Source: Nocardioides panacis
GTDB lineage: Bacteria; Actinomycetota; Actinomycetes; Propionibacteriales; Nocardioidaceae
Assembly: GCF_019039255.1 (NCBI RefSeq)
Contig: NZ_CP077062.1
Span: forward strand, 3,472,001 to 3,536,000
Length of the DNA stretch: 64,000 nt
Reading direction: 5' to 3'
Of this stretch, positions 3,029-58,511 are shown piece after piece (position 1 is the stretch's first letter; every line of letters starts with the position of its first letter). Below the pieces are notes generated by a model. The model saw nothing but the letters and a program-made list of their open reading frames with translations, was not told where the DNA came from and searched no databases. Position numbers and translations under genes: made by a program.

Positions 3029-3871
3029 CAGGAGCCTCCCTTGGGGTTCTGCTTGCCGCCGGCGTCCTCGCCGACGGTCTCCGCGCCCGACTCCTCGACC
3101 GCGGTCTCGGACCGGGCCCGGCCCATCGTGGTCTGCGCCCCGAGGTCCTTGCTCCGGCCCTCGGCCGCGCCGGCGGTGACCTCGTCACGGTCGCTGTCGG
3201 GGGGCGGTCCAGCCGTTCTCGCGGGCGATCTGCAGCCCGAGCAGCGAGGCGGGACCGGCAGCCGGACCCTCGTCGGCCCGGTCGTCGGGGAACCCGGCGA
3301 GCACCCGCTCGGCCTCGCGCCAGGTGCAGATGCGCGGCCCGCGGGTGGAGCGGACCTCCTTGCCCTCCCGCAGGTCGTCGACCAGCCGGGTCGCGGACTC
3401 GGGGGTCTGGTTGTCCATGAACTCCCAGTTGACCATCATCACCGGGGCGTAGTCGCACGCCGCGTTGCACTCGAGGTGCTCCAGCGTGATCCTGCCGTCG
3501 TCGGTGGTCTCGTCGTTGCCGACGTCGAGGTGGTCCTTGAGCCGCTCGAAGATCTCGTCGCCGCCCATCACCGCGCACAGCGTGTTGGTGCAGACGCCGA
3601 CGTGGTACTCACCGACCGGGCGGCGCTTGTACATCGTGTAGAACGTCGCGACGCCGGACACCTCCGCGGCGGAGATGCCCAGGATGTCGGCGCACGCCTC
3701 GATGCCGCGCGAGGTCACCCGCCCCTCGACGCTCTGCACGAGGTGCAGCATCGGCAGCAGCGCCGAGCGGGCCTGCGGGTAGCGCGTGGTGATCTCCCGC
3801 AGCTCCGCCAGCACCGAGGCGTCGAAGCCGGCCCCGTTGGTCGGGCTCGTCGTAACCATGTCGTCTGTCAA
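3028..3871 (-). CDS. nuoE: NADH-quinone oxidoreductase subunit E, with an apparent +1 frameshift near its C-terminus
   Basis: Thioredoxin-fold [2Fe-2S] subunit that partners NuoF. The cluster ligands CTNTLC and CNAAC are present. As given, the frame stops at 3185 (228 aa). A G6 run at 3199-3204 sits exactly where the reading changes: dropping one base converts [12 protein letters not shown] into [11 protein letters not shown] and opens an acidic C-terminal tail ending KQNPKGGS, with a stop at 3028-3030 that shares its A with the nuoF start. The restored protein is 280 aa and fills an otherwise unexplained 157-bp gap in a tightly packed operon. The start ATG at 3871 overlaps the nuoD stop. I interpret the break as a sequence error; the core fold is intact in either case. 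Confidence 0.93.
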
Positions 3872-5229
3872 CGGTCTACTCCACCCATCACGGGGTCGAT
3901 CGAGGCGATGGCGACGATGACGTCGGCGACCATGCCGCCCTCGCTCATCACCGAGGTCGCCTGCAGGTTCGTGAACGACGGGTCGCGGAAGTGCGCCCGG
4001 TAGGGACGCGTGCCGCCGTCGGACACCACGTGGGCGCCGAGCTCGCCGCGGGGCGACTCGACGGGGACGTAGGCCTGGCCGGCCGGGACCCGGAAGCCCT
4101 CGGTGACCAGCTTGAAGTGGTGGATCAGGGCCTCCATCGACTCACCCATGATGTGCCGGATGTGGTCGAGGCTGTTGCCCATCCCGTCGGTGCCGACCGC
4201 GAGCTGGCTGGGCCAGGCGATCTTCTTGTCGGCGACCATCACCGGTGCGCCCTCGAGCCCGGCGAGCCGCTCGGCCGCCTGCTCGACGATCTTCAGCGAC
4301 TCCCACATCTCGTCCAGACGGATCCGGAAGCGGCCGTAGGCGTCGCAGGTGTCGCGGGTGGGCACCTCGAAGTCGTAGTCCTCGTAGCCCGAGTAGGGCT
4401 GCGACTTGCGCAGGTCCCACGGCAGGCCCGTCGAGCGCAGCACCGGGCCGGTGAGGCCGAGCGCCAGGCAGCCGGCGAGGTCGAGGTGGCCGATGCCGAC
4501 CAGCCGGCCCTTGAAGATCGGGTTCGCGTTGCACAGCGCGGCGTACTCCGGGAGCCGCTTCTTCATCAGCGCGACGAAGTCCCGGATCTGGTCGAGCGCG
4601 CCGGGCGGCATGTCCTGGGCGACCCCGCCGGGCCGGATGAACGCGTGGTTCATCCGCAGGCCGGTGATCAGCTCGAACAGGTCGAGCACCAGCTCGCGCT
4701 CGCGGAAGCCGATCGTCATCACCGTCAGCGCGCCGATCTCCATGCCGCCGGTCGCGATCGCGACCAGGTGGCTGGAGATCCGGTTCAGCTCCATGAGGAG
4801 GACGCGCATGACCTGCGCCTTCTCCGGGATGTCGGCCTCGATGTCGAGGAGCCGCTCCACGCCCAGGGAGTAGGTGGCCTCGTTGTAGAACGGGGAGAGG
4901 TAGTCCATCCGCGTGCAGAACGTGACGCCCTGCACCCAGGAGCGGAACTCCATGTTCTTCTCGATGCCGGTGTGCAGGTAGCCGATGCCGCAGCGGGCCT
5001 CGGTGACCGTCTCGCCCTCGAGCTCGAGGATCAGCCGGAGCACGCCGTGCGTGGAGGGGTGCTGGGGCCCCATGTTCACGACGACGTGGTCCTCGCCCTC
5101 CTCGGCGAGGCCCTCGGCGATGGTGTCCCAGTCCTGGCCGGTGACGGTGAAGACCCGTCCCGCGGACGTGTCCGCGCCGGGTGCGTAGGGGTCCTGCCCC
5201 TGCTCGGTGGTTGAGCTTGTCGAAACCAT
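3868..5229 (-). CDS. nuoD: NADH-quinone oxidoreductase subunit D
   Basis: 49-kDa-type subunit of complex I which, with NuoB, forms the quinone-binding pocket. The 453-residue length is normal for actinobacteria. Visible family signatures are [15 protein letters not shown] near residue 52, the central [11 protein letters not shown] segment, and the C-terminal [11 protein letters not shown]. It starts at 5229 sharing one base with the nuoC stop (TGATG), and its stop overlaps the nuoE start. The first 35 residues are polar and low in complexity, typical of this clade. Nothing is missing. Confidence 0.98.
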
Positions 5230-56399: not shown

Positions 56400-58511
56400 T
56401 CCTGCCCGGCCCCCACCACCCGGCTGGCCACGTCGTCGGGCATCGGCTCGTAGCGGGCGAAGCTGCGGGTGAACGACGCGGAGCCGTGCGTGAAACCGCG
56501 CAGGTCGACGGAGTAGCGGCTGATCTCCACCTGCGGGACCTCGGCGCGCACCAGGGTCCGCTCCTGACCGGCCGGCTCGCTGCCGAGCACCTTGCCGCGC
56601 CGTCCGGACAGGTCGCTCATCACCGCGCCGACCAGGTCGTCGGGGACCAGCACCAGCACCTCGTCGACCGGCTCGAGCAGCGCGGTCCGGGACGCCGCCG
56701 CGGCCTCCCGCAGCGCGAGCGCCCCGGCGGTCTGGAAGGCCATGTCGGAGGAGTCCACGCTGTGCGCCTTGCCGTCGCGCAGGGTCACCCGGATGTCCAC
56801 GACCGGGTAGCCGGCCGCGACGCCGCGCTCCATCTGGGCCCGCACGCCCTTCTCGACCGAGGGGATGAACTGCCGCGGCACCGAGCCGCCGACGACCTTG
56901 TCCACGAACTCGAAGCCGCTCCCCCCGGGGAGCGGCTCGACCTCCAACCGGCACACGGCGAACTGGCCGTGGCCGCCGGACTGCTTCACGTGCCGGCCGT
57001 GGCCGACTGCCGGGGCCGCGAACGTCTCCCGCAGCGGGACCTTCAGCGGGACCTGGTCGACGCCGACGCCGTGTCGGTGCTCGAGCCGGTCGAGGACCAC
57101 GTCGGCGTGCGCCTCCCCCATCGTCCAGAGCACGATCTGGTGGGTCTCGGCGTTGTGCTCCACCCGCAGCGTCGGGTCCTCGGCGGAGAGCCGGGCCAGC
57201 CCCTGGCCGAGCTTGTCCTCGTCGGCCTTCGCGCGCGCCTCGACGGCGACCGGCAGCAGCGCCTCGGGCATCGTCCAGGGCCGCAGCACCAGCGGCTGCT
57301 GCGGGTCGGACAGGGTGTCCCCGGTCTCGGCGCGGCTGAGCCGCCCGATCGCGCAGAGGTCGCCGGCGACGACCAGGTCGGCGTGCCGCTGGGTCTTGCC
57401 GAGCGGCACCGAGAGCGACCCGATCCGCTCGTCCTCGTCGTGGTCCTCGTGGTCTCCCGGGCCGGCGGCCAGGTGCGCGCCGTCCCCGAACGAGTGCAGG
57501 TGCCCCGAGACGTGCACCGTCGCGTCCGGCCGCAGCGTGCCGGAGAACACCCGCACCAGGCTGACGCGTCCGACGTACGGGTCGCTCGTGGTCTTGACGA
57601 CCTCGGCGACCAGCGGGCCGGCCGGGTCGCAGGTGAGCGCCGGCCCGCGGCCGCCGGTCGGCGTGAACACCTCGGGCAGCGGGTGCTCGAGCGGGGAGGG
57701 GGAACCCGGCCACCACCAGGTCCAGCAGCTCGCGGGCACCGACGCCGGTGGTGGAGTCGACGGGGACGACGGGGTGGAAGGTGCCGCGCGCGACCGCCCG
57801 CTCGAGGTCCTGCACCAGGAGCGCAGCGTCGACGACCTCCCCGCCGAGGTAGCGCTCCATCAGCGTCTCGTCCTCGGACTCCTCGATGACCCCCTCGATC
57901 AGCCGGCCGCGCTGCTCGTCGTACGCCGCGGAGTCCGAGGAGCCGGAGATCAGCCCGACGAGCCGGCCGCCCTCGCGCAGGTAGACCGGCAGCACCCGGT
58001 CGCCGAACGCGTCGCGCAGGCCGGCCAGCAGCCCGTCGTAGTCCGCGCGGGCGTGGTCGAGCTTGGTGACCACGACGACCCGCGGCATCCCCACGTCGGC
58101 GCACTCGCGCCACAGCGTCCGGGTGGGCTCGTCGACGCCCTCGTTGGCGGCGATCACGAACATCGCGCAGTCGGCGGCCCGAAGCCCGGCGCGCAGCTCG
58201 CCCACGAAGTCGGCGTAGCCGGGGGTGTCGAGAAGGTTGATCTTCACGCCGTCGTGCACCAGCGGCGCCAGCGCCAGGCCGACGGACCGCTGCTGGCGCT
58301 GCTCGGCCTCGTCGAAGTCGCTGACGGTCGTGCCCTCGACGGTCGAGCCCGGCCGGTTCAGCACGCCGGCGCTGACCAGGAGGGTCTCGGTGAGCGTGGT
58401 CTTGCCGGACCCTGCGGGGCCGACGACCACGACGTTGCGGACGGTTCCGGGGCCGGAGGCGAGAGGCACGGAGCCCTTGCCCTGGGGACTCACCGACTGC
58501 TTGCCTGACAC
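56396..58511 (-). CDS. fusA2: Elongation factor G-like protein (EF-G2), apparent +1 frameshift
   Basis: Five-domain translational GTPase paralogue. G motifs: [15 protein letters not shown] (G1), [12 protein letters not shown] (G3), [10 protein letters not shown] (G4, Thr in place of the usual Asn). The C-terminal domains are in another frame. The switch is between 57693 and 57702 (runs G4 and G5). One base fewer joins VVAGFP to [16 protein letters not shown] and gives 704 aa. GTG 58511 has GGGAGG 6 bases upstream. In mycobacteria FusA2 is dispensable and of uncertain role; a second, canonical EF-G is expected elsewhere. Confidence 0.9.

Follow-up and report, generated by a model that had tools for sequence, protein, structure and literature searches.

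Single extra bases recur in two sequence contexts, in one sense and across the sampled part of the closed genome of Nocardioides panacis (G000; 4,901,775 bases), and the rRNA operon copies of that genome contradict each other in the same manner. We infer, with very little doubt, that these bases are errors of the assembly consensus and not mutations; the consensus was presumably built from long reads. The phenomenon is an ordinary one, and the genes concerned are almost certainly not really broken.

Frame switches in the 64-kb window

The window, the whole 64,000-base stretch that was analyzed, spans positions 3,472,001–3,536,000 of G000, whose G+C content is about 72–74%. The named proteins most similar to its HemA come from Nocardioidaceae, one of them from Nocardioides iriomotensis at 79% identity. 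A preliminary description of the window had reported eight genes, each broken by one extra base in a run of G or C. The eight sites are as follows (window coordinates):

3199..3204, - strand: nuoE, G6 run, +1 frame switch near the 3′ end
8159..8164, - strand: menJ, G6 run, +1 frame switch near the 5′ end
13629..13635, - strand: Na+/H+ antiporter gene, G7 run, +1 frame switch near the 5′ end
28391..28397, - strand: hemL, C7 run at the 3′ end; gene intact, no stop before the phosphatase gene
34913..34919, - strand: hemC, C7 run at the +1 frame switch
37077..37082, - strand: rex, G6 run within the N-terminal coding region; own frame without the usual start codon
37468..37473, - strand: glutaredoxin-like gene, G6 run at the +1 frame switch
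57693..57702, - strand: fusA2 (EF-G2-like), GGGGAGGGGG at the +1 frame switch

The frame change is of +1 sense at all eight sites, and seven genes (nuoE, menJ, the Na+/H+ antiporter gene, hemC, rex, the glutaredoxin-like gene and fusA2) are split by it. The preliminary description overstated the case of hemL, which is intact in its body and has lost only its stop. The run positions that it gave were found as described, except that the fusA2 site consists of two runs and not one.

Family models place the fragments of several genes as successive parts of one protein. The menJ parts match TIGR02032 (geranylgeranyl reductase family) at positions 2–32 and 38–297, the hemC parts TIGR00212 at 1–44 and 54–292 of 293, and the fusA2 parts NF009377 at 2–278 and 282–698 of 700. 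The upstream part of nuoE matches the NuoE model NF005721 (27–235 of 292), and both parts correspond to one 273-aa frame of the relative G001. The downstream part of the antiporter gene matches TIGR00831 (26–523 of 525), and both of its parts lie in one frame in the relative loci L056 and L070. At six loci (nuoE, menJ, the antiporter gene, hemC, the glutaredoxin-like gene and fusA2) the two fragments matched, in order, a single open frame of a relative; the comparison with relatives that the preliminary description had proposed thus returned plain open frames. In a separate homology scan, from which clusters below 30 bits were left out, the +1 switch was seen against 28 relative loci in hemC and against 22 in the glutaredoxin-like gene; these are counts of loci, several of which come from one genome in some cases.

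The remaining two genes required other evidence. In the rex frame, the first ATG, GTG or TTG past the upstream stop is at 36917, within the conserved part, whereas all 25 relative rex frames among the matches listed have a start codon upstream of that part. The N-terminus encoded in the other frame resembles, as judged by eye, that of the rex product of G003. The hemL frame is open across the conserved length, matching a relative locus (L014) at 85% over residues 3–437 of the 461-residue query in one frame, and continues without a frame change into the phosphatase gene. None of the 22 relative hemL frames that passed the cut has hemL and the phosphatase gene in one frame.

Frame changes were listed with a codon-usage model (six coding frames and one non-coding state) trained on the window and the first 20 stretches of G000, and a strict filter retained changes in mid gene. 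This approach replaced a homology scan of raw open reading frames, in which gene boundaries and antisense frames were mixed in, and was combined with directed fragment searches. For the window it gives 24 same-strand frame changes. The strict filter catches four of the eight sites (menJ, hemC, the glutaredoxin-like gene and fusA2), all +1. The nuoE switch was seen by the model and filtered out, as a stop follows soon after in the shifted frame, and the antiporter, rex and hemL sites went unflagged and were found by directed comparison. The homology scan against relative sequences revealed no further breaks within the window; an entry at 36394 was taken for the ordinary rex/hemA boundary. The window gave no Rfam match at the gathering threshold and no match in a tRNA scan, and a plasmid collection searched with positions 24001–32000 returned only distant, partial matches.

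Sense, context and spread in the genome and its relatives

The genome sample consisted of the window plus 55 stretches of 20 kb each, 56 in all and 1,164,000 bases of G000, and contained 87 strict switches (7.5 per 100 kb), 69 of them of +1 sense. Among the first 62 switches the two senses stood at 52 to 10, far from even (p = 5.7e-8), and 33 of the first 36 stretches held at least one. Four relatives scanned in the same way gave no strict switch in G001 (210,427 bases; two short contigs, L109 and L113, were left out) or G012 (100,000 bases), one in G010 (100,000 bases) and nine in G003 (300,000 bases), although the sensitivity of a model trained on G000 may be a little lower in relatives. All nine switches in G003, a closed relative, are of the other (-1/+2) sense (loci L059, L060, L063, L095, L100, L102 and L103); they are perhaps under-called runs in the G003 assembly.

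A G/C run of at least six bases lies within 25 bases of 45 of the 69 +1 switches, compared with 0.56% of random coding 50-base windows (first 764 kb of G000). Runs of at least seven numbered 42 in 764 kb of G000 vs. 7 in 710 kb of the four relatives. Of the 87 switches, 18 have the other sense, and only five of these are in runs of at least six; real overlaps, losses of one base or gains of two could account for them. At one (L087), all nine relative proteins place two extra bases.

Ten breaks beyond the window sites were compared with NCBIfam models, and in seven both sides fell, in order, in one family. The seven include DnaE1, lipoamide dehydrogenase and succinate CoA transferase; with HemC, they indicate that the error hits genes irrespective of function. 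The models were uninformative for the breaks in L078 and L133, and that in L079 was rejected as a split gene, being two whole neighboring genes that are read through like hemL. Around position 2803 of L079, an aspartate carbamoyltransferase gene seems to lack its stop near a C6 run and to read toward a whole dihydroorotase gene. The replicative polymerase DnaE1 has a sole above-cut-off match in G000, which covers model positions 127–1143; positions 3–132 are in another frame, at a C8 run, and G001 and G003 each carry the protein in one open frame of 1225 aa. The rpoC gene of G000 is intact.

The claim that extra bases occur in G/C runs and nowhere else holds for the window; it fails for the sampled genome, where 24 of the 69 +1 switches are outside runs of at least six and 17 of these 24 are at the word TGGAAG, 16 of the 17 as CRTGGAAG. 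CRTGGAAG is a second error context besides runs; the preliminary description missed it, and it is new in the present analysis. Only 1.4% of random coding windows hold TGGAAG. The word was noticed among the first 52 +1 switches (17 outside runs of at least six, 11 of these at TGGAAG). A prediction was then made before 400 kb of fresh sequence was scanned, in which six of the seven non-run +1 switches were at TGGAAG and all six were CRTGGAAG (chance 0.00016). At the initial 11 sites and the 16S site taken together, CR precedes TGGAAG in 11 of 12, vs. 229 of 983 TGAAG words (p = 1e-6). The unaltered word, with the extra G removed, is CRTGAAG, as read from the 16S copies and the relatives. Single switches of this type are found, for example, at L079 12153, L086 14412, L133 17379 and L167 10183. 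The overall density of CRTGGAAG is 8.4 per 100 kb in G000 and 8.7 in the relatives; since the word is no denser in G000, the effect must be partial. When the k-mers of G000 (464 kb) were compared with those of the four relatives, TGGAAG did not stand out, and the top rows look like ordinary differences in composition.

The most telling evidence comes from ribosomal RNA, which frameshifting cannot rescue and whose operon copies normally stay alike. We aligned two operons of G000 with one each of G001, G003 and G010; G012 was omitted, its locus being partial (3203 bases). Six columns of the 16S and 23S genes have an extra base in G000 alone, five of them in one G000 copy and one in both; the reverse, a single base absent from G000 only, does not occur inside the 16S or 23S genes of this alignment. 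Five of the columns are at G/C runs, one of which (23S) sits in a stretch that is variable among relatives. The sixth is in 16S: TGGAAG stands in one G000 copy (2,259,501–2,261,021), against TGAAG in the second copy and in the relatives. The 23S copies of G000 also differ by one substitution.

Consensus error, gene decay or recoding

These data strongly suggest that a sequencing or polishing step over-called G/C runs, mostly by one base, and that it also inserted a surplus G into a small fraction of the CRTGAAG words. Depending on where it falls, such a base would shift the frame (inside a gene), remove the stop (at a gene end, as proposed for hemL and, elsewhere, the carbamoyltransferase gene) or make two rRNA copies differ. 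The spread of the switches, the rarity of the +1 sense in four relatives, the contradiction between rRNA copies and the split polymerase gene all point to consensus error, and mutation does not fit them easily. The same observations support the preference of the preliminary description for a technical over a biological origin.

The frame switches could also be read as real and recent gene decay, in which run slippage went uncorrected, Actinobacteria relying on NucS and not on MutS/MutL, and frameshifts accumulated. According to the part of the source available to us, MutS-MutL is missing from almost all Actinobacteria (PMC5290159), and single lesions with the coding signal intact on both sides would fit very recent events. 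Decay should, however, spare essential genes and yield losses as well as gains, whereas here the replicative polymerase gene and hemC are split and rRNA carries extra bases specific to one copy; nor is the +1 pattern seen in the scanned relatives, which presumably share the repair system. We therefore regard decay as very improbable. Even less credit can be given to the proposal that the runs are real and that whole proteins are made by transcriptional slippage or ribosomal frameshifting. Most sites are slippery-looking G/C runs, as this proposal would have it, but the shift site is not conserved, the six loci compared being plain open frames in relatives; the TGGAAG class, 17 of the 69 +1 switches, lies outside runs of at least six; and frameshifting cannot rescue the affected rRNA.

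Consensus error has precedents. In the accessible portion of one report, long-read-only assemblies retain homopolymer indels by the hundred and repeats are hard to polish (PMC8812927), which would fit the error density in rRNA. As far as the excerpts of the three reports concerned extend (PMC8812927; PMC12007338; PMC11649196), such errors are likewise single-base indels in homopolymers that occur genome-wide and shift frames, and repeats such as rRNA operons are difficult to polish. The resolved errors of G000 differ in being gains, almost always of G or C, whereas the same excerpts stress losses and two of the reports give base loss as the usual sense (PMC11649196; PMC12007338). Further points that weigh against consensus error are the 18 switches of opposite sense, the intact rpoC, the rRNA column common to both copies and the substitution between the 23S copies.

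Possible cause of the CRTGGAAG class and meaning of the errors

For the CRTGGAAG class only, we think it fairly probable that the base caller or polisher has a plain sequence-context fault that involves no DNA modification. The small share of words hit and the near-equal densities of CRTGGAAG in G000 and its relatives agree with such a fault, and insertion errors at non-run words are on record, to judge from a partial text (PMC12007338). Against it stands the shape of the word, which is that of an enzyme target (asymmetric, with a purine position, a penultimate A and G last) as such targets appear in the excerpt of PMC4833311; moreover, MmeI-like methyltransferase domains are encoded in G000, and G001 and G003, searched for three methyltransferase families, matched none of them.

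More tentatively, CRTGAAG could be methylated on its penultimate A by a DISARM-type DrmMI (or IIG-like) enzyme, and native DNA could have been read by a caller untrained on the mark. DISARM-like genes for DrmD, DrmMI and DrmA are side by side in one stretch:

L078 11211-19998 (G000 about 1.091–1.100 Mb): drmD, drmMI and drmA; DrmA runs off the stretch

We take a DISARM locus with drmD and drmMI to be of class 1. The DrmMI of G000 has MmeI_Mtase and MmeI_TRD domains, and the genome also encodes a IIG-like gene and a type II methyltransferase. The IIG-like methyltransferase is in two overlapping frames (L148 1–1938 and 1883–3346, ~4.167–4.169 Mb) that match successive parts of one model.

The MmeI-like DrmMI may be the enzyme linked to CRTGAAG. 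Within the available part of PMC4833311, words of the MmeI family (type IIL) are asymmetric, as is CRTGAAG, and the word of MmeI itself, TCCRAC, differs from it and has six bases. Positions 806/808 of MmeI, which read the last base, align to Gly/Thr in DrmMI in a PDB search with a weak alignment, and this is neither of the residue pairs decoded in the same excerpt. Nanopore consensus errors are known to arise at methylated words, for example at Dcm CCWGG in the portion seen of PMC6591954, where the errors likewise gather at one short word. The case of G000 differs from it in the word (CRTGAAG), in the base added (an extra G), in the small share of words hit and in that the modification is only putative here. 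For another actinobacterium with a DISARM-like locus, the authors suspected an unusual modification, according to the part of the text available (PMC7365801). Searched as text, CRTGAAG and CTTCAYG gave no link to methylation in the titles and abstract openings of the literature reached, which covers a minority of the subscription papers.

Because the strict filter caught four of the eight window sites and switches occur at 7.5 per 100 kb, we estimate several hundred errors in the genome. Several hundred genes of G000 are thus probably written as broken though they are whole, which would mislead comparisons of pathways, pseudogenes and rRNA. In a closed genome, such errors can be screened for cheaply by looking for disagreement between rRNA copies. 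Of the whole phenomenon, only the CRTGAAG class is perhaps informative on the organism itself. If the methylation reading is true, a finished assembly would reveal the recognition word of a defense methyltransferase without signal data, and the targets of methyltransferases could be sought among the error contexts of long-read assemblies in the databases.
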